Assembly (NCBI GenBank): GCA_019459525.1
Contig: JAIBEY010000052.1
Span: 145,114 to 209,113 of the forward strand
DNA length: 64,000 nt
Direction: 5' to 3'
DNA from: Prolixibacteraceae bacterium
GTDB lineage: Bacteria; Bacteroidota; Bacteroidia; Bacteroidales; Prolixibacteraceae
A model generated the notes under the pieces. That model saw nothing but the letters and a program-made list of their open reading frames with translations. It did not search any database and was not told the DNA's origin. A program made the position numbers and the translations under genes. This document shows positions 33,369 to 43,092 of this stretch, one piece after another (positions within the stretch are counted from its first letter, which is position 1; every line of letters begins with the position of its first letter).

Positions 33369-34433
33369 TTAGTTCTTACTTACCCATTCGGCAATCCAGT
33401 CACCTACTTCTGAAGTGGAGTATGGTTTTTCAGTTGAAATATCCACGGTTACCACTTTGGCATCCAGCGAAGCATCAACTGCTTTACGGATGATGGCGCC
33501 TTCAGCCTGAAGATCGAACGCGTATTCGAACATCATGGCAGCCGACAAAATGGTTGCAACCGGGTTGGCAATATTTTTACCGGCAGCTTGCGGATACGAA
33601 CCGTGAATAGGCTCGAACACCGAAGTGTGAATACCGATGGAAGCTGATGGGGACAAACCAAGCGAACCGGTAATTACGCTGGCCTCGTCGGTCAGGATAT
33701 CGCCGAACATGTTTTCGGTCACCATCACATCAAAGTTCTTTGGCCACTGGATAATCTGCATAGCGGCGTTATCAACGAACATGTATTCTGTCGTTACTTC
33801 CGGATAAGTTGGAGCCATTTCCTGAGCCACTTCGCGCCACAGACGTGAACTTTCCAACACGTTGGCTTTGTCAACTACAGTCAATTTTTTGTTGCGTTTC
33901 ATCGCATATTCGTAACCCAATTTCAGGATACGTTCCACTTCCATGCGGGTATAAACACAAACATCGAATGCGGTATTGCCATCGTCTTTTCGGCCTTTTT
34001 CACCGAAATAAATACCTCCAGTTAATTCGCGAATAGCCACAAAATCGGCGCCTTCAATCAGCTCGCGGCGAAGCGGTGATTTATGCAACAACGATGGGAA
34101 AGTTACTACCGGGCGAATGTTGGCATACAAGCCAAGTTTTTTGCGCATCAGCAACAAACCTTGTTCCGGGCGAACGGTTGCTTTCGGGTTGTTGTCGTAT
34201 TTCGGGTCGCCGATGGCACCAAACAATACGGCATCCGATTTCATACACAATTCGTGGGTTGAATCAGGATACGGAGCGCCCAATTCGTCAATGGCGCACG
34301 CGCCAGTCAACGCGTATTCGTATTCCAACTCGTGGTTGAATTTGGCAGCAACCGCTTTTACAACTTTCATGGCCTGATCGATAATTTCAGGACCGATCCC
34401 GTCGCCGGGAAGAATGGCTAATTTTAACTTCAT
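33369..34433 (-). CDS. leuB: 3-isopropylmalate dehydrogenase
   Basis: A 354-residue LeuB, catalysing NAD-dependent oxidative decarboxylation of 3-isopropylmalate. The N-terminal strand [17 protein letters not shown], the catalytic block (TGGIYFG), the substrate-binding [13 protein letters not shown] and the NAD loop [14 protein letters not shown] with the following [12 protein letters not shown] are all present. The length is standard. It is the last gene of the leu operon and is followed by an intrinsic terminator. Confidence 0.96.
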
Positions 34434-34503: not shown

Positions 34504-35247
34504 CTATGTAACTATGTGGTTCCTATTTTTCCTTGCGCCGAAGGCTGCAAAGTTAAAATGTTTATGCAATACTATTGTTTCAGAAAATCCAACCTGTTTC
34601 ATCAGGTCAAACTGATACGACAAAGTTCGCGGTGTATCTTCCGATTCGTAGCGTTGCATGTACATTTCAATTTCTTCCTGACTAACTTGTTTCTTCAACA
34701 TGCTGATCCAACCTTCCAACATCATCTGATTAATCTCATCGGTTTCGCCAATTACGATATCGTTGATCCAGAATGTTCCACCGGGTTTCAGCGCATTGAA
34801 AACCTTCGCGAAAACCGATTCCCATTCCTGATCTTCACGCAGGTGATGAAGCGTTGTTCCGGCGGTAATCACATCGTAGCAGTTTTCGCCCAAGTCAATG
34901 TCGCGATAGTCGCCCTGAATGACAGTTACGGTTCCATTAATATTTTCACGAACGCGTTCTTCGGCTTTAGCCAGCATGTTCGCACTCAGGTCAATTAAGG
35001 TACAATCAACATCGGGAAGAAACGATGTAACTTTCACTGCATAATTTCCGCCTCCGCAACCCAAATCCAGAATTTTTGCTGCCTCCGGATTTAACAAAGC
35101 GGCCGTACGAGCTACCAACTCCATGCACAAAGGCGAATCGATGGCGGTAGTTTGGCCGGTCTCAATATTCGAAAACCGATCTACCTGCTGGTCGAAATTA
35201 TTCCGAATGGCTTCCGGGGTTGATTTTGTATGTTGAGGGATCATCAA
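34504..35247 (-). CDS. SAM-dependent methyltransferase inside the leu operon
   Basis: A 247-residue class I methyltransferase: motif I ILDLGCGGGNYA, acidic VDCTLIDLSANML, then VIQGDYRDIDLG and a helical C-terminal cap. The motif set resembles ubiquinone/tetrahydrofolate or small-acid methyltransferases, and perhaps isoprenoid O-methyltransferases. It lies between the second LeuA-like gene and leuB in the same direction, with 70 and 100 bases of spacing, so it should rise and fall with leucine enzymes. No known leucine step needs methylation; trans-aconitate-type carboxyl methylation of a leu intermediate would be one idea. Confidence 0.8.
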   Translation of the reverse strand: MMIPQHTKSTPEAIRNNFDQQVDRFSNIETGQTTAIDSPLCMELVARTAALLNPEAAKILDLGCGGGNYAVKVTSFLPDVDCTLIDLSANMLAKAEERVRENINGTVTVIQGDYRDIDLGENCYDVITAGTTLHHLREDQEWESVFAKVFNALKPGGTFWINDIVIGETDEINQMMLEGWISMLKKQVSQEEIEMYMQRYESEDTPRTLSYQFDLMKQVGFSETIVLHKHFNFAAFGARKNRNHIVT

Positions 35248-35347: not shown

Positions 35348-36886
35348 TTATTTTTCAATCAAATTCAGCATTCGCATAGTGGCTTTAATCGCAGCGGCGG
35401 TCTGGTCAGAATCGAGTCCGCGGGTTTTAAATTCGTGCCCCAATTCCCAGGTAATTAAAGTTTCAACCAACGCATCAGTTTGTCCTCCCGGAGGAATGGT
35501 AACCGAATAATCGAGTAATTTGGGGAAAGGCTTATCCAGTTCCCGGTACACCGACTGAACGGCATTCATAAAGGCATCATACTGACCATCACCGGCAGCA
35601 GTGGCCTCGTATTTCTCACCCTTCAGCATAAAGCTTACTGTGGCAGAAGGGCGCAGGCCCATGGCATGAGACAAGGAATAATTCACCAATTTAATAGCCG
35701 TTTCGCCATCCTCGTAATTCAGCACATCAGCCACAATATAAGGCAGATCTTCAATGGTTACAGTCTCTTTGCGGTCGCCCAGCTCAATAATCCGGTCGGT
35801 AACCAGTTTCAGGGAAGCAGCATCAAGCTCAATGCCCAAATCTTCGAGATTATTCTTAATATTTGCTTTTCCTGAAGTTTTTCCCAATGCATAAACACGG
35901 GTACGGCCAAACCGTTCAGGCAGCAAATCGTTGAAATACAAATTGTTTTTACTATCGCCATCAGCATGAATTCCACTGCATTGCGTAAATACGAATTCGC
36001 CGATCAGTGGCTTGTTGGTCGGGATGCGGATTCCGGAAAACGACTCAACCAGCTTCGAAATTTTATTGAGCATGGTTTCGTTCACACGTGTTTCCATTTT
36101 CATGTGATCTTTCACCGTTGCAATTACGCTCGAAAGCGGTGCGTTACCGGCCCGTTCGCCCAGTCCGTTAACGGTGGTGTGCACGGTGCGGATTCCTGCT
36201 TTTATGGCATGAAAAACATTGGCTATCGCCAAATCATAATCGTTGTGAGCATGAAAATCGAATCGGGCTTCCGGATAAGTTTCAATCATTTCGCGACAGA
36301 ACTCATAGGTCTCATCCGGATCGAGAATACCCAACGTGTCGGGCAACATGATACGATCGACATGCAGCTTCAGCAATTCAGAAACCATAAAATGAACGTA
36401 ATCTTTTGAATTACGCATCCCGTTCGACCAGTCTTCGAGGTAAACATTCACCCGAATGCCCAGTTCATCGGCATAATCAATCGACCTTTTAATGTCTTCG
36501 ATATGCTGTTCAGGGGTCTTCCGTAGTTGCTGGGTAACATGCCTGTACGAGCCTTTGCAAAGCAGGTTCAGCACTTTACCTCCGGCAGAATTGATCCAGT
36601 CGAGCGAGGTTTTCCCATCTACAAAACCAAGAATTTCAACCTGAGGTAAACGACCTTTATCTTTCGCCCATTCCATCACCCGTTTAGCGGCAAGAAATTC
36701 ACCGTCGGAAACGCGTGCCGATGCTATTTCGATACGATCAACCTTTACATCTTCCAACAGAATACGGGCAACACTCAGTTTTTCCATATCGGTGAATGAT
36801 ACTCCCGAGGTTTGCTCCCCATCCCGCAGTGTCGTATCCATGATACTTAGCACCTGATCCTTCACTTCAATTATTTTTCCTGTCAT
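35348..36886 (-). CDS. Second LeuA-like enzyme: 2-isopropylmalate or (R)-citramalate synthase
   Basis: A 512-residue enzyme of the HMGL-like/LeuA superfamily. The catalytic core opens with [18 protein letters not shown], the metal-site HAHNDYDLAIAN follows, and the C-terminal about 120 residues form a LeuA-type allosteric domain. It differs from the first LeuA of this operon ([15 protein letters not shown]) and contains the run GERAGNAPL. In Bacteroidetes this second copy is annotated either as IPM synthase or as citramalate synthase, which would make 2-oxobutyrate from pyruvate and acetyl-CoA. Its stop lies 100 bases from the methyltransferase start, its start eight bases from leuD. Confidence 0.8.
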   Translation of the reverse strand: MTGKIIEVKDQVLSIMDTTLRDGEQTSGVSFTDMEKLSVARILLEDVKVDRIEIASARVSDGEFLAAKRVMEWAKDKGRLPQVEILGFVDGKTSLDWINSAGGKVLNLLCKGSYRHVTQQLRKTPEQHIEDIKRSIDYADELGIRVNVYLEDWSNGMRNSKDYVHFMVSELLKLHVDRIMLPDTLGILDPDETYEFCREMIETYPEARFDFHAHNDYDLAIANVFHAIKAGIRTVHTTVNGLGERAGNAPLSSVIATVKDHMKMETRVNETMLNKISKLVESFSGIRIPTNKPLIGEFVFTQCSGIHADGDSKNNLYFNDLLPERFGRTRVYALGKTSGKANIKNNLEDLGIELDAASLKLVTDRIIELGDRKETVTIEDLPYIVADVLNYEDGETAIKLVNYSLSHAMGLRPSATVSFMLKGEKYEATAAGDGQYDAFMNAVQSVYRELDKPFPKLLDYSVTIPPGGQTDALVETLITWELGHEFKTRGLDSDQTAAAIKATMRMLNLIEK

Positions 36887-36894
36887 AATACGGT

Positions 36895-37479
36895 TTATTT
36901 TTCGAAGGCAGCGATCTCTTCTTTCATGCTGATCAAATAATCAATATCGTCGAGTCCATGAGTCAAACAATGTTTTTTGTACGGATTGATTGTAAAATCT
37001 GCCGATTCGCCAGTTGCTTTGATCGTAAATTTTTGATTCTGAAGATCAACTTCGAACTGTGCGTTATTGTCTGCACCAATGGCTGCAAATATCTTTTCCA
37101 GAAACTCAGGTGATACAACCACCGGAAGGATGCCATTGTTCAAAGCATTTCCCTGAAAGATGTCGGCAAAGAAGCTGGAAACCACTACGCGAAAGCCGTA
37201 GTCGTAAATGGCCCAGGCTGCATGTTCTCGACTCGAACCACTTCCGAAATTTTTGCCTCCAACCAATATTTCGCCTGAATATTTCGCCTGATTCAGCGGA
37301 AAATCGGCAATTGGCTGGTTGCTTTTATCGTAACGCCAGTCTCGGAACAGGTTATCGCCAAAACCTTTGCGCTCAACGGCTTTCAGAAAACGAGCCGGAA
37401 TAATCTGGTCAGTATCAATATTTTCTATGGGCAGCGGAACTGCCGAAGATGTTAATGTTGTAAATTTATCGTAAGCCAT
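36895..37479 (-). CDS. leuD: 3-isopropylmalate dehydratase small subunit
   Basis: A 194-residue LeuD, the small subunit that completes the aconitase-type isomerase with LeuC. The family's start ([25 protein letters not shown]) and the [13 protein letters not shown] loop that binds the substrate carboxylate are intact. The order leuC-leuD is interrupted by a four-helix-bundle gene and repeat DNA, although the two subunits are normally adjacent. Confidence 0.96.
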
Positions 37480-37533: not shown

Positions 37534-37908
37534 TTATTTATGTGAGTTATTTTGCAATGTCATTCTTGATTTTATTAAAATTGATGCGATTTCGTGAGCC
37601 TCATTCATTAAAGAAGAACCATTTGAGTTTGAATTTAAACCTTCATCCAAAGCAAATTCAATCCAGAATTCACTTTCATCAACTTCCTCAATCGCGATGC
37701 TCATTTTGCTTATCAACACCGGAACCGTTTGCGCAATGCAAGATGCCCAGTAATTGGCTGCTACTGAAGTTGAACATCGTATTAATTGACCACTGATGTG
37801 TCTCCCAAGTTGATCATTTGGAAGATCCAATGAAAACTTGACACAATCATGAGCAAACTTTTTTGTTCGCTTTTTGAGTTGATCTTTAAACAATGACAAA
37901 TCAGACAT
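37534..37908 (-). CDS. Four-helix bundle protein (23S rRNA intervening-sequence type)
   Basis: A 124-residue helical protein. The pattern FKDQLKKRTKKFAHDCVKFSLDLPND...LIRCSTSVAANYWAS is the familiar four-helix bundle/S23-type protein found in rRNA intervening sequences and scattered singly over Bacteroidetes genomes; the function is unknown. Here it sits in the leu operon between leuC and leuD, bracketed by TTAGAAT-type repeats, and so looks like an insertion. There is no rRNA gene nearby. Confidence 0.85.
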   Translation of the reverse strand: MSDLSLFKDQLKKRTKKFAHDCVKFSLDLPNDQLGRHISGQLIRCSTSVAANYWASCIAQTVPVLISKMSIAIEEVDESEFWIEFALDEGLNSNSNGSSLMNEAHEIASILIKSRMTLQNNSHK

Positions 37909-38121: not shown

Positions 38122-39522
38122 CTAAAGGAACTCTCTCGGATCAGTAATCTTTCCTGTTACGGCGGCGGCAGCGGCGGTTAGCGGACTGGCGAGCAAGGTG
38201 CGGGCGCCTGGTCCCTGACGACCTTCGAAGTTGCGGTTCGAGGTGGATACCGAATATTTTCCTTCCGGAATTTTATCGTCGTTCATGGCTAAACATGCTG
38301 AACATCCCGGCTGACGCAGTTCGAAACCTGCTTCATTCAGAATTTCAACCAAACCTTCAGCAATGATTTGTTTCTCTACAGCACGTGATCCGGGAACAAT
38401 CCAGGCAGTCACATTGTCGGCTTTCTTTTTGCCTTTCACAAATTGTGCAAAAGCGCGGAAATCTTCAATGCGGCCATTGGTGCAACTTCCAACGAAAACA
38501 TAGTCGATTTGTTTGCCAACCATTTTGTCGCCTTCTGTGTAACCCATGTATTTCAACGACTTTTCGTAAGTCAGCTTGTCGTTGCCAATTAAACCGGCAC
38601 TGGTCGGAACATTTTTCGAAATGCCAATTCCCATTCCCGGATTGGTTCCAAAAGTGATCATCGGTTCGATATTGGCTGCATCAAATTCATAGACTGTATC
38701 GAAAACTGCATCAGCATCCGATTTCAATGTTTTCCAGTAAGCCAAAGTTTTATCCCATGCTTCGCCTTTTGGTGCAAATTCGCGACCTTTCACGTAGTCG
38801 AAAGTAGTCTGATCAGGAGCAATCATCCCGCCACGCGCACCACATTCGATGCTCATGTTGCAAAGTGTCATACGTCCTTCCATGGTCAGGCTTTCAATGG
38901 CCGATCCAGCAAACTCAACAAAATGGCCAGTTCCGCCAGATGTTGAAATCTGAGCGATTACATATAAAGCGATATCTTTTGCTGTAACGCCTTTGTTGAG
39001 CTTACCGTTTACCGAGATCAGCATTTTCTTTGGTTTCGGCTGCATGATACACTGACTGGCCAACACCATTTCCACTTCACTGGTACCGATTCCGAATGCA
39101 ATTGCTCCGAAAGCACCGTGAGTAGATGTGTGGCTATCGCCGCAAACAATGGTCATTCCGGGTTGGGTAATCCCCATTTCAGGACCAATGATGTGAACAA
39201 CTCCGTGCCCTTCGGTTCCTAGCCCATGATAAACGATGCCATGTTTGGCGCAGTTTTTCTTCAGCATTTCCACCTGATTGCGCGACAACTCGTCTTTAAT
39301 ACTCAGGTGCTGATCGATGGTTGGCACGTTGTGGTCGGGGGTTGCAACCGTTTTTTCGGGGCGGAGCACTTTCGCACCGCGTTTTTCCAATCCCAAAAAT
39401 GCAACCGGACTCGTCACTTCGTGGATAAAATGACGGTCGATGTAAATTACGCTTGGGCCGCCTTCAACCTCTTTCACTACATGCGAATCCCAAATTTTGT
39501 CGAATAAAGTTTTTGCTTCCAT
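38122..39522 (-). CDS. leuC: 3-isopropylmalate dehydratase large subunit
   Basis: A 466-residue LeuC, the [4Fe-4S] subunit that isomerises 2- to 3-isopropylmalate. The cluster cysteines appear in [13 protein letters not shown] and GCSACLAMN, and the opening [12 protein letters not shown] is standard. Length is normal. Between its start and leuA lies 253 bases of repeat-like DNA without genes. Confidence 0.96.
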
Positions 39523-39775: not shown

Positions 39776-41296
39776 TCACCCCTGAACAGCTTTTGTGGCT
39801 CCAGGAATTTTGTTAATCGCATCCAGGAAAGCTTCGACCGATGCGGTGATGATGTCGGTATTGGCGCCAAATCCGTGGTAAATACCTTCTTCGTGTTTTA
39901 CCTGCATGTGCACTTTTCCCAAATCGTCGCTACCGCGATTAATGGCCTGTATCAAAAATTCTTCCAACACCACTTTACGGTGAATGATTTTCTTAACTGC
40001 TTTCAACGCTGCATCAACCGGACCGTTTCCTGAAGCTGTGGCATCCAGAATTTCACCCGCAATATTCAGGCGGACATTGGCAATCGGCACCAATCCTTTT
40101 CCGGTAACCACTTGCAGAAAGTCCAATTTCACACGACGTTCTTTCTGTGTAACGTCGCCCAATAAAGCAGCTACGTCGTCGTCTTTAATATCTTTTTTCT
40201 TATCAGCCAATTTCAGGAACTGATCGTAAACTTCATCAAGCTTTTCTTTGTCCAGTTCGAAACCCATCAGTTCAAGCCGGTGTTTCAACGCTGCGCGTCC
40301 GCTGCGGGCTGTCAACACAATGCTCGATTCGTTGATACCCACATCATTTGGATCCATGATTTCATAGTTTTCGCGGTTCTTCAACACTCCATCCTGATGA
40401 ATTCCGGAGGAATGAGCAAAAGCATTGCGCCCTACAATTGCTTTGTTGGGCTGAACCGGCATATTCATCAGGTTTGAAACCAAACGGCTTGTTTTGTAAA
40501 TGTTCTTCGTATTGATATTGGTGTCGATATTTAAAATCGCATAACGGCTTTTCAGGATCATCACCACTTCTTCCAACGAAGTATTTCCGGCACGTTCGCC
40601 AATCCCGTTGATGGTCACCTCGGCCTGACGGGCTCCGTTCATGATCCCCGCAATGGTATTGGCAGTGGCCATCCCTAAGTCGTTGTGGCAGTGAGTTGAT
40701 AAAATCGCTTTATGCACGTTTGGCACGTTATCAATCAGGTATTTTATTTTGGCGCCAAATTCGTGCGGCATAGTATAACCTGTTGTATCCGGAATATTCA
40801 CTACCGTTGCACCAGCTTTAATTACCGCTTCAACCACACGGGCCAGGTACTCGTTTTCGGTACGTCCGGCATCTTCAGCGTAAAACTCTACATCTTCGAC
40901 ATACTTTTTGGCATATTTTACAGCCGCAATCGCACGTTCAATAATTTCATCCTGATTCGAGTTCAGCTTGTAATGAATATGGTAAAACGAAGTTCCGATA
41001 CCAGTGTGAATACGTCCTTTCTTTGCAAATTTGAGAGCTTCGGCTGCAACATCAATGTCTTTTTCGACTGCGCGGGTGAGGGCACAAATGGTTGGCCAGG
41101 TAACCGCTTTTGAAATTTCTACTACCGAATTGAAATCGCCAGGACTTGAAATCGGGAAGCCAGCTTCGATGACATCAACACCAAGTTCTTCCAAAGCTCG
41201 TGCAACTTCAATTTTCTCAACTGTGTTCAACTGACACCCGGGAACTTGTTCCCCATCGCGCAAAGTGGTGTCAAAAATGTACAATCTGTCGCTCAT
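39776..41296 (-). CDS. leuA: 2-isopropylmalate synthase
   Basis: A 506-residue LeuA, condensing acetyl-CoA with 2-oxoisovalerate. ATG 41296 ([20 protein letters not shown]) matches the family start; 16 codons upstream are open but lie inside the leader terminator region and have no homology. The metal motif [12 protein letters not shown] and [12 protein letters not shown] are intact, and the C-terminal LeuA dimer regulatory domain (about residues 385-506) is complete, so leucine feedback inhibition is expected. A leucine attenuator precedes the gene. Confidence 0.96.
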
Positions 41297-41330: not shown

Positions 41331-41364
41331 AAAAAAAAAGCCATTCCCTGATTTGAGAATGGCC
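41331..41364 (-). terminator. Leu leader terminator (attenuator hairpin)
   Basis: In the minus direction GGCCATTC, loop, GAATGGC and nine T. The 5' arm (CCATTCTCAA, 41353-41362) is also the partner of the antiterminator at 41394-41403. It lies 35 bases before the leuA ATG. Confidence 0.92.
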
Positions 41365-41393
41365 TTATTTAAGCTCTTATAGTTTTACCCATA

Positions 41394-41403
41394 CCATTCT
41401 CAA
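41394..41403 (-). promoter_or_regulatory. Antiterminator segment overlapping the leader stop codon
   Basis: TTGAGAATGG on the minus strand contains the TGA stop of the leader peptide and is a perfect 10-base complement of CCATTCTCAA, the first arm of the terminator. A ribosome finishing the leader would hide it; a ribosome stalled at the leucine codons would leave it free. Confidence 0.9.
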
Positions 41404-41471
41404 TCGCGCATCCAAATTAGAAGAATACCGAGAAGGAGACCTAGAAGGGAAATGTTAGCAAAACCTGTCAT
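41400..41471 (-). CDS. leuL: Leucine operon leader peptide
   Basis: A 23-codon frame, ATG 41471 to TGA 41402-41400, encoding M T G F A N I S L L G L L L G I L L I W M R D. Seven of 23 residues are leucine, five of them in LLGLLL and the rest in ILLI, written with CTT, CTA and CTC codons rather than CTG. Ribosome stalling at these codons when Leu-tRNA is scarce would let the antiterminator (41394-41403) block the terminator (41331-41364) and allow transcription of leuA and the following genes. It is the classical leader-peptide attenuation design. The sequence is too short for automatic gene calling. An A/T-rich promoter region precedes it. Confidence 0.92.
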   Translation of the reverse strand: MTGFANISLLGLLLGILLIWMRD

Positions 41472-41712
41472 TTTTGAATAATTTGATGCAAATATGAACA
41501 TTATTTTTTAAAATGAAAACAAAACAAACATTTTTATTCGGATTACGAAGAAAAAGATAAAAATATCCGAATCTATACCCATCCTGTGGTTTTGTTCCTC
41601 AAAAACTGAAACAAAGATTTTGGAAGAAGGTTCGTAGCATGCTCGGAATGGAGATTAAAGTTTAATTTCCTCGTTCAGGCAGCCTCACTAAAATTGTAGA
41701 AATATGAAATAA

Positions 41713-41769: not shown

Positions 41770-43092
41770 TTATTTTGTTTTAATCACTTCAAATTCAACT
41801 CTGCGGTTTAAAGCACGACCTTCAGGAGTATCATTTGTAGCAGCAGGAGTAGTTTCACCTAAACCTTTCTGTGAGGCAATACGGTTCTTTTTAACTTTGC
41901 TTGAAGTTATTGCCTTTACAACTGCGTTGGCTCTGATTTTAGACAAATTCATGTTGTAATTATCTTCGCCCTGACTGTCAGCATGACCCGTAATGTTAAC
42001 TTTGTAATCTTCGTTTTCTTTCAACAAGTTAACTAATTTGTCAACTTTTACTTTTTCGTCAGCAGTAAAGGTGGTTTTGTTTGAGTCAAAATAAACTGGC
42101 TCAACTTTCATTTTCTGAGCTTCCAGTTCTTCAGCAGTCAATTCTTTTTTCGGGCACCCTTTGTTTTCTTTTAATCCGGCAACGGTAGGACACTCATCTT
42201 CTTCATCCACCACACCATCCTTATCAGTATCAAGCGGACAACCAGTTGCATCTACTTTATACCCCTTTTTAGTACCAGGGCATTTGTCGTTAGCATCAGT
42301 AACACCGTCACCATCAGCATCCGGACAACCTTTGAGGCTTGCAACACCGGCAACTTCAGGACAAGCATCATCCTTATCGGCAATACCGTCTTTATCGGTA
42401 TCAGGACATCCTTTTAAAGAGGTTAAGCCAGCAACAGTAGGGCAATCGTCAATATAATCTGCAACGCCATCGCCATCGGAATCAATCGGACAACCATTTT
42501 CGTCAACAGCAACACCGGTCGGTGTATTGGGACACTTATCCTTTTTATCAGATACGCCATCCATGTCGGAATCTGCTGTTTTCCCGAAATCATATTCAAT
42601 GCCTAAAGTGGCTTTCCAAAAATTATCACGAACAGTTTTACTGGCAACTGTAGTTTCAATGCCATTAATATAACCAGCATCCAGATACAATGCCGTATTC
42701 GGGTTAAAATAATATTTACCTCCTAAACCCAAATCAAAATTCAGACCTGTTTCTGAATTGTCAGCAAGAAAACCCGGTCCGGCAAAAAGATAAGGACGGA
42801 ACTTTTTACTCTCATCTGTAAGTTTATATCTCAGATTCAAGAAAGCATTAGCTAAATCCAGGTTACTGTTAAGTTTAGAGTTAAAAACGCCGAGATCGCC
42901 CTTTAGCATTAAATCCAGTTTTGGACTAAGATACCGACTTAAATACAACTCCGGCATTAATCCTAAACCGCCATCGTTTAGAGAACCGTAACCACCAACG
43001 CCAGCAGCTATTCCCCATTTTTTATCAACCGTTTGGGCATTTACTGTTAAAGCAAATGCCACGATTAAAGAAAGTAAAAGTACTTTTTTCAT
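41770..43092 (-). CDS. OmpA-family outer-membrane protein with thrombospondin type-3 repeats
   Basis: A 440-residue protein in four parts: a signal peptide (to about residue 19, VNAQT), an N-terminal beta-barrel (to about 175), five or so calcium-binding thrombospondin type-3 repeats (DSDMDGVSDKKDKCPNTPTG, then DSDGDGVADYIDDCPTVAGL and further DxDxDG units) and a C-terminal OmpA peptidoglycan-binding domain (NITGHADSQGEDNYNMNLSKIRANAV). This is a common abundant Bacteroidetes surface protein tying the outer membrane to peptidoglycan. It is monocistronic, with a 206-base upstream region. Confidence 0.93.
   Translation of the reverse strand: MKKVLLLSLIVAFALTVNAQTVDKKWGIAAGVGGYGSLNDGGLGLMPELYLSRYLSPKLDLMLKGDLGVFNSKLNSNLDLANAFLNLRYKLTDESKKFRPYLFAGPGFLADNSETGLNFDLGLGGKYYFNPNTALYLDAGYINGIETTVASKTVRDNFWKATLGIEYDFGKTADSDMDGVSDKKDKCPNTPTGVAVDENGCPIDSDGDGVADYIDDCPTVAGLTSLKGCPDTDKDGIADKDDACPEVAGVASLKGCPDADGDGVTDANDKCPGTKKGYKVDATGCPLDTDKDGVVDEEDECPTVAGLKENKGCPKKELTAEELEAQKMKVEPVYFDSNKTTFTADEKVKVDKLVNLLKENEDYKVNITGHADSQGEDNYNMNLSKIRANAVVKAITSSKVKKNRIASQKGLGETTPAATNDTPEGRALNRRVEFEVIKTK

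Follow-up and report, generated by a model that had tools for sequence, protein, structure and literature searches.

The window analysed here, a stretch of 64,000 nucleotides from a Prolixibacteraceae bacterium, carries on its minus strand an operon for leucine biosynthesis in which leuA is followed by leuC, a gene for a four-helix-bundle protein, leuD, genes for a citramalate-synthase-like protein and a methyltransferase, and leuB (Table 1). The citramalate-synthase-like gene would represent a route to an isoleucine precursor, if the activity holds. The start of leuA that is common to relatives lies at 41296 (MSDRLYIF); a second in-frame ATG, at 41344 and within the terminator described below, was chosen by the mechanical ORF caller. 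On the minus strand, the region ahead of leuA holds, in this order, a putative −7 box, a leader ORF, an arm that overlaps the leader stop, a GGTATG block, a spacer, the complement of the arm with the terminator, and a run of nine T.

Table 1. Features of the leu operon and of the region upstream of leuA, with positions in the window.
Feature	Position	Strand	Basis or remarks
Predicted −7 promoter element CATATTTG	41489..41496	-	1 mismatch to TAnnTTTG; 17 nt 5' of the leader ATG
Leader peptide ORF MTGFANISLLGLLLGILLIWMRD	41400..41471	-	Open frame in 18/18 genus loci compared; deletions are of whole codons
Control codons 9-19, LLGLLLGILLI	41415..41447	-	7 Leu and 2 Ile; CTA twice
Antiterminator 5' arm TTGAGAATGG	41394..41403	-	Holds the leader stop TGA (41402-41400)
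GGTATG block, 3' edge of antiterminator 5' arm	41390..41395	-	Conserved in 58 loci
Antiterminator 3' arm CCATTCTCAA	41353..41362	-	Exact complement of TTGAGAATGG; bases common to terminator 5' arm
Terminator 5' arm GCCATTC	41357..41363	-	Sequence, folding and alignment
Terminator 3' arm GAATGGC	41340..41346	-	Sequence, folding and alignment
T9 run, end of intrinsic terminator	41331..41339	-	Direct read-back
leuA, 2-isopropylmalate synthase, first operon gene	39776..41296	-	NCBIfam NF002086, 754.6 bits; TIGR00973, 700.3 bits; both above cut-off
leuC, 3-isopropylmalate dehydratase large subunit	38122..39522	-	TIGR00170, 656.8 bits
Four-helix-bundle protein, between leuC and leuD	37534..37908	-	TIGR02436, 64.6 bits
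leuD, 3-isopropylmalate dehydratase small subunit	36895..37479	-	TIGR00171, 192.6 bits
Citramalate-synthase-like protein	35348..36886	-	Best family NF042433 CimA, 656 bits, under the cut-off of 950
Methyltransferase, unassigned role	34504..35247	-	Below cut-off among the 25 matches listed; best TIGR02072, 69.6 bits
leuB, 3-isopropylmalate dehydrogenase	33369..34433	-	TIGR00169, 439.5 bits

Read directly, the leader consists of 23 codons and a TGA stop, and its seven leucines are encoded by CTT (three), CTC (two) and CTA (two). The coordinates and sequence given in a preliminary description of this DNA were right on read-back, as were its claims that the stop-containing arm (41403-41394) is exactly complementary to 41362-41353 and that the latter leads into a GCCATTC/GAATGGC terminator with nine T. 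Three of the features by which the attenuator class is recognised were found here: an intrinsic terminator stands 5' of the first gene of the operon, a short ORF carries a run of codons for the operon's own amino acid, and an alternative pairing excludes the terminator, as judged from pairing and geometry, with masking by the ribosome being modelled. Folding of the single leader gave z = −2.1 and recovered the terminator. The −7 promoter consensus of the Bacteroidota type is TAnnTTTG, and within 60 nt 5' of the leader in 58 loci the box was exact in 32, had one mismatch in 24 and was absent from two, counts that carry no chance control. Because such a box lies 5' of the leader at most loci, a transcription start downstream of 41331 is unlikely, given these predicted elements.

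Among the 555 small ORFs (14-45 aa) of the 64-kb window, the leader ORF is alone in having, at the stop, an exact 9-nt arm paired with a T-run terminator; when the window was resampled 120 times with a first-order Markov model, the arrangement never appeared. No other small ORF of the window has six or more Leu in 10 residues. A Leu-rich small ORF is by itself not rare: by chance, a mean of 0.90 per resample was obtained at six or more Leu in 10 residues, and of 0.07 at seven or more.

Relatives were searched with a covariance model, R1, trained on leuA leaders that include those of the window's own genome (G000) and of genomes G023, G026 and G030. A match of at least 59 bits was found in 22 of the 23 genomes of the window's genus; the exception, G002, is 76% complete and has no leuA match better than 9e-21. 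The frame is open in the 18 genus leaders, three of which are shorter by one codon, and changes of their Leu codons are mainly synonymous or to Ile; three genus leaders given as 33 codons were counted from the outer ATG. Thus, the loss of the frame or of the pairing in close relatives, which would have told against an attenuator, did not occur, and both are kept. Further afield, an R1 match on the leuA strand upstream of leuA was detected at E 0.05 in 45 of 80 named leuA loci (the best 80 of 594 matches, many of which also trained R1), among them loci of Bacteroides gallinarum, Phocaeicola, Parabacteroides, Prevotella and Draconibacterium, and at the same threshold and on the same strand 35 of the 80 had none. 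Likewise, of the 55 leuA matches found in the order, three short ones were excluded, and 30 of the 52 near-full ones had no R1 match within 400 nt at E 0.001. At some leuA loci without an R1 match, divergent versions of the leader are visible by eye. Judging from these comparisons, the arrangement of leader, arm and terminator is conserved across much of the Bacteroidales.

An alignment of leuA upstream regions from relatives, as proposed in the preliminary description, revealed covariation in both the antiterminator and the terminator. This alignment, A1, holds 58 leuA leader segments, 57 of them distinct, and was obtained from 109 upstream regions that gave 66 segments, some of which were removed by name. 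Two loci (L034 and L035) were excluded as duplicates of L011 and L019, and eight of the 66 segments, with weak or odd pairing (L033, L041, L043, L055, L061, L069, L106 and L113) were left out, which favours the pairing count. In A1, which leans towards pairing since 47 of the 58 loci came through an automatic paired-arm scan and 11 by eye, the antiterminator was paired in 85.0% of cells, as against 40.8-48.0% when slid by 1-3 columns, and changes on both sides were seen at six of 15 pairs, with 39 such cells versus 17.2 in shuffles. The terminator was paired in 90.0% of cells, with changes on both sides at nine of 13 pairs. Because A1 was partly selected by a pairing scan, the count was repeated on A2, an alignment of 27 ilvD leaders, none of which had been used in training the model. 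A2 comprises 27 of 28 ilvD loci (L208 is absent), and was aligned by R1, which encodes the terminator pairs and not those of the antiterminator. In A2, whose loci were found by R1 and therefore lean towards the arm letters held in its consensus, the antiterminator was paired in 82.2% of cells, versus 43.2-52.9% when slid, with changes on both sides at seven of 14 pairs. At one position, where A-T and T-A alternate, the antiterminator arm and the terminator 3' arm change in concert, because the same base is the partner of both.

The choice of codons in the leader is also unusual. All seven Leu codons of the window leader are CTT, CTC or CTA, codons that encode 39 of the 192 leucines of the seven operon genes (P about 1.4e-5), and CTA, used twice, is the rarest Leu codon of the operon. 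That the leader never uses CTG, as had been pointed out, is true in the window and weak taken alone (P about 0.085 from operon usage). As a general rule the avoidance of CTG was rejected, as leaders from outside the genus use CTG for 36 of 183 leucines; the rule is an enrichment of CTA. This codon accounts for 88 of 280 leader Leu codons, whereas leuA at the same loci uses it for 27 of 1928 (Fisher P 1.7e-60, a value that ignores kinship), and its share is higher in the leader than in the leuA gene at 56 of 58 loci.

The spacing between codons and arm is nearly fixed: the last Leu or Ile codon lies 13-16 nt 5' of the arm in 48 of 58 loci, with the start of the arm taken as column 19 for the window's type and column 15 for the others. 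A stalled ribosome reaches about 13-16 nt in front of its A site, and the observed distance is about that at which a stalled ribosome would just clear the arm. The position of the stop is less constant, being inside the arm at 30 of the 58 loci, 10-29 nt beyond it at 25 and 5-8 nt before it at three. At the 25 loci with a late stop, the arm is frequently translated as GSE or GSD, and we infer that a terminating ribosome would cover at least part of it. Since the position of the stop relative to the arm varies, the RNA is kept where the reading frame is not.

Across 15 genus leaders that have the same length, Ile is found 14 times at codon 13 and seven times at codon 14; codons 9, 12, 17 and 18 are Leu throughout. 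It is quite possible, without being probable, that the same device responds to isoleucine or to all branched-chain amino acids and not to leucine, with the charging of the Leu and Ile tRNAs measured together because the operon likely feeds both pathways. Ile codons are present in all 58 leuA leaders, several Prevotella leaders have runs such as IIII and few Leu, codons 10, 13 and 14 alternate between Leu and Ile within the genus, and the operon includes the citramalate-synthase-like gene. However, the bias towards a rare codon falls on leucine (CTA), leuA is the first gene, the four invariant codons of the genus leaders are all for Leu, and the assignment of the cimA-like gene is under the cut-off. 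Thus, a leader dependent on leucine, as first proposed, agrees with the Leu-rich codons and with the enrichment of CTA, but Leu alone is not conserved and is often replaced by Ile. Because many relatives swap Leu for Ile and because the operon has a citramalate-synthase-like gene, the sensed signal, as far as codons and gene content indicate, is probably Leu plus Ile.

The leader frame, the stop-containing antiterminator arm and the terminator very probably act together as a ribosome-mediated attenuator of leu operon transcription. The reading of this region as a leader-peptide attenuator had been a prediction, and it is supported by the conservation of frame and pairing, the covariation, the enrichment of CTA, the spacing and the match between the amino acids of leaders and the operons behind them. 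When leucyl-tRNA, and probably isoleucyl-tRNA, is charged, a ribosome following RNA polymerase would reach the stop codon and cover 41403-41394; with the arm covered, the terminator would form and transcription would stop at the T run. When charging is low, above all that of the CTA-reading tRNA, the ribosome would stall on codons 9-19 and the arm would stay free to pair with 41362-41353 before the terminator 3' arm exists, resulting in read-through into leuA-leuC-leuD-cimA-like-leuB. We infer that transcription begins from the upstream box, that the leader is translated, that ribosomes stall on it and that regulation follows.

This scheme was modelled by folding the RNA with the ribosome represented as a blocked footprint from −18 to +11 of the A-site codon, which is an assumption. 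Before the terminator 3' arm exists, the antiterminator had a mean pair probability of 0.96 with no ribosome or with a stall at any of the seven Leu codons, and of 0.00 with the ribosome at the stop. At full length, the terminator won in every modelled ribosome state (−16.1 kcal/mol, against −14.3 for the antiterminator hairpin), and therefore the switch must be kinetic.

Enterobacterial attenuators of the four-segment type (trp, leu) form a protector hairpin, 1:2, besides 2:3 and 3:4. In our loci, pairing of the arm with the leader before its target is made was predicted at a mean of 0.78 versus 0.55 with shuffled leaders; 55 of the 58 loci exceeded their respective controls, and the window did not (0.62 versus 0.67). 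The consensus of the 18 genus leaders contains such a hairpin, with 15 pairs and none with changes on both sides, and the consensus of 25 wider loci contains no arm-leader hairpin. The GGTRTG block that borders the arm may belong to a protector hairpin or act as a polymerase pause site, the latter being a guess. The consensus of elemental pauses is G at −10/−11, Y at −1 and G at +1, and the block fits these positions together in 47 of 58 loci, with at most eight doing so at any other spacer column tested. The idea of a pause is weakened because, in several loci, GGTRTG is also predicted to pair with the leader.

Matching leaders stand before other operons as well. A search with R1 over 129 genomes of the order, each at least 90% complete, yielded 52 matches at E 0.001, spread over 33 genomes. 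Twenty-three are before leuA, 22 of them 18-58 nt upstream of the leuA match and the other (L200) before a gene read by eye as leuA broken by unread letters. The remaining matches include 22 before ilvD and four before gltB, genes named by eye except that NCBIfam was used for L173, L194 and L182; a pair at G435:C9, on both strands of one palindromic place, is without a leader, and one match (G525:C9) was left uninspected. The mean of V/(V+L+I) is 0.04 in the 58 leuA leaders versus 0.35 in 28 ilvD leaders (Mann-Whitney P 5e-13); valine occurs in 27 of the 28 ilvD leaders, and 40 of the 58 leuA leaders have none 5' of the arm. R1 found leaders with the fitting amino acid before trpE, thrA, ilvE and metY in the wider phylum and before trpB and pheA within the order; one locus per gene type was checked, with pheA just under its cut-off and the thrA match cut by the end of the locus. 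Of 29 R1 loci from the wider phylum (L144-L172), 17 have a fitting leader and in 12 none was seen; because leaders are mixed with plain terminators, matches across the phylum were not counted as members.

Some of these loci merit separate mention. In four genomes, the gltB-like genes (L182, L196, L205, L211) have the same arm and terminator upstream, and the peptides show no run of Glu or Gln (for example, MKTKHTSFANKHAYKHNKIVQ). Upstream of metY, coding for O-acetylhomoserine sulfhydrylase (L172, G323:C130), a Met/Cys-rich frame ending in MKPVMMQMCMMMCCCMRGTCENVLLPS is accompanied by arm and terminator. Thr/Ile-rich leaders lie ahead of aspartokinase-homoserine dehydrogenase genes at L154, L160, L164 and L171, where the Rfam model Thr_leader scored 29.4-40.6 bits, under its cut-off of 55. 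At L178 (G024:C26), ilvD is preceded by two attenuators in tandem, both of which have a separate Ile/Val/Leu-rich leader and terminator.

Within the window's own genome we read the regions upstream of leuA, ilvD, trpE, hisG, four aspartokinase-type genes and pheA, a weak kinase match (L218) being left out. The ilvD-ilvB locus (L173, G000:C101:70637-70719, minus strand) has the same scaffold, with the leader MKNISIISLVIVSVVVLLRAE, the run IISLVIVSVVVLL and, at the stop, an 11-nt arm, GCTGAATGAGA/TCTCATTCAGT, with one G-U pair. The trpE leader (L213), with IWWWH, and the hisG leader (L220), with HYGHHH, both precede a T-run terminator; of their arms, that of hisG is fair (GGTAGGC/GCTTACC) and that of trpE weak (AAGTAGCT/AGCGGCTT, one mismatch). 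No such leader was seen by eye within about 320 nt of the aspartokinase genes L214-L216 or of pheA (L219). The aspartokinase-type gene L217 is preceded by a Met-rich small ORF ending in MMSMYMIMR and then by a 9-bp stem without a T run.

We tentatively raise the possibility, which we hold to be somewhat doubtful, that one ancestral attenuator scaffold was re-keyed by codon swaps, operon by operon, across the Bacteroidota. Its common parts would be the leader frame, an arm of the GTGAGAxxGGT type that overlaps or adjoins the stop, the GGTRTG block, which may pause RNA polymerase, and the terminator. Equally tentatively, the keys would be Leu/Ile for leuA, Val/Leu/Ile for ilvD, Thr/Ile for thrA, Trp for trpE and trpB, Phe/Tyr for pheA and Met/Cys for metY.

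These leaders also bear on whether the peptide itself has a function. Judged by eye, the hydrophobicity of LLGLLLGILLIW would suffice for one membrane helix, and the peptide is kept within the genus, as would be expected if the frame coded for a small membrane protein and the hairpin were a plain terminator with fixed read-through. This seems very unlikely, as R1, whose training set was leuA leaders, also picks up leaders rich in Trp, Thr or Val ahead of matching operons, the trpE and hisG leaders of the same genome are rich in Trp and His, and such leaders are unlike one another as proteins; nor would the enrichment of CTA, the near-fixed distance from codons to arm or the compensatory changes in the antiterminator be expected. 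Slightly less probable still is a fortuitous frame within a riboswitch or T-box-like element, which would detect a ligand or a tRNA with no need for translation. An intrinsic terminator with an alternative pairing before an amino acid operon would suit such an element, but it is the frame itself that occupies the sequence 5' of the arm, and its codon content tracks the operon. Rfam models gave no match at the gathering threshold over the whole window, and at 28 leuA loci, not all of which have a leader, the leader position was without a match even at E up to 1; a T-box or riboswitch was rejected on these grounds. That the hairpin, which does lie downstream of the gene at 41770-43092 on the same strand, is the terminator of that gene with chance features around it has a negligible probability and was rejected, as the gene has its own inverted repeat and T run shortly past its stop (AAAAGCCGTCGCAA...TTGTGACGGCTTTTCTT) and leader and terminator stay with leuA in relatives.

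If the attenuator reading is true, the element would be a direct control point for leucine and valine output in the Bacteroidales, the order to which Bacteroides, Prevotella and Parabacteroides, major gut bacteria, belong. It would add a case in which CTA serves as control codon, as in the enterobacterial leu leader. In the Bacteroidota, a phylum in which Shine-Dalgarno signals are little used, it would also offer a set of natural attenuators that differ in the amino acid to which they are keyed. Leader peptides of such length are missed by routine gene calling, and the leu and ilv leaders that were compared with Rfam (the leuA loci and the ilvD loci L149 and L173) had no matching family.

Leader-peptide attenuation is a textbook mechanism, and in the enterobacterial leu attenuator (leuL; Rfam Leu_leader) a Leu-rich leader with rare CUA codons precedes leuA. 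The element described here is like it in the Leu-rich leader before leuA, in the use of CUA, in the mutually exclusive terminator and antiterminator and in that the position of the ribosome would be the switch. It is unlike it in that the stop codon lies within the antiterminator arm and Ile codons are mixed in, and the protector hairpin is here a prediction. With the Leu_leader covariance model and a limit of E 1, none of 28 leuA loci, the window's among them, was matched. Lopatovskaya, Seliverstov and Lyubetsky (2010) reportedly surveyed many phyla and may list cases from Bacteroidetes. Four of our loci (L044, L048, L052 and L064) are presumably from termite guts, going by the names of the isolates. 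The motif Termite-leu (RF01730), which appears as a row in a table of PMC2864571, was rejected as the same motif, as it had no match in these four loci.

Naville and Gautheret (2010) stated that, to their knowledge and with ermC set aside, their case in Firmicutes was the first such attenuator to be demonstrated beyond Proteobacteria and Actinobacteria (PMC2965389). In Staphylococcus aureus, a Leu-rich attenuator peptide backed by mutants precedes ilvD, whose expression increases upon Leu depletion and in attenuator mutants (PMC5794164). As described there, that attenuator shares with ours a short Leu-rich peptide, with three Ile in it, and a terminator and antiterminator, but it belongs to another phylum, precedes ilvD and not leuA, and acts with CodY (PMC5794164). 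Closer in descent, passages of a study of Flavobacterium psychrophilum report "strong clues", from mapped 5' regions, of leader-peptide attenuators before amino acid operons (PMC9723704). These cases are from the same phylum and concern amino acid biosynthesis operons, and the passages name no leucine or leuA case (PMC9723704). Also from this phylum is Rfam RF01692, Bacteroid-trp, the "Bacteroidete tryptophan peptide leader RNA", which matches the WWW leader before trpB at L185 (63.4 bits, cut-off 49), a site that R1 found as well. At E up to 1, RF01692 had no match in the 28 leuA loci, the ilvD loci L149 and L173, four trpE loci or the trpE locus of the window's genome. No attenuator for leucine or leuA in Bacteroidota was among the open-access literature matches listed. 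The suggestion in the preliminary description that no leucine attenuator had been described in Bacteroidota thus agrees with those matches, but leader-peptide attenuation had already been noted in the phylum, by RF01692 and in the passages cited above (PMC9723704). RF01692 and the leuA leader are alike in layout and phylum and differ in the amino acid, which for RF01692 is tryptophan; the leuA leader is very likely a new, widely conserved case of a known attenuator class, sensing Leu and probably Ile.
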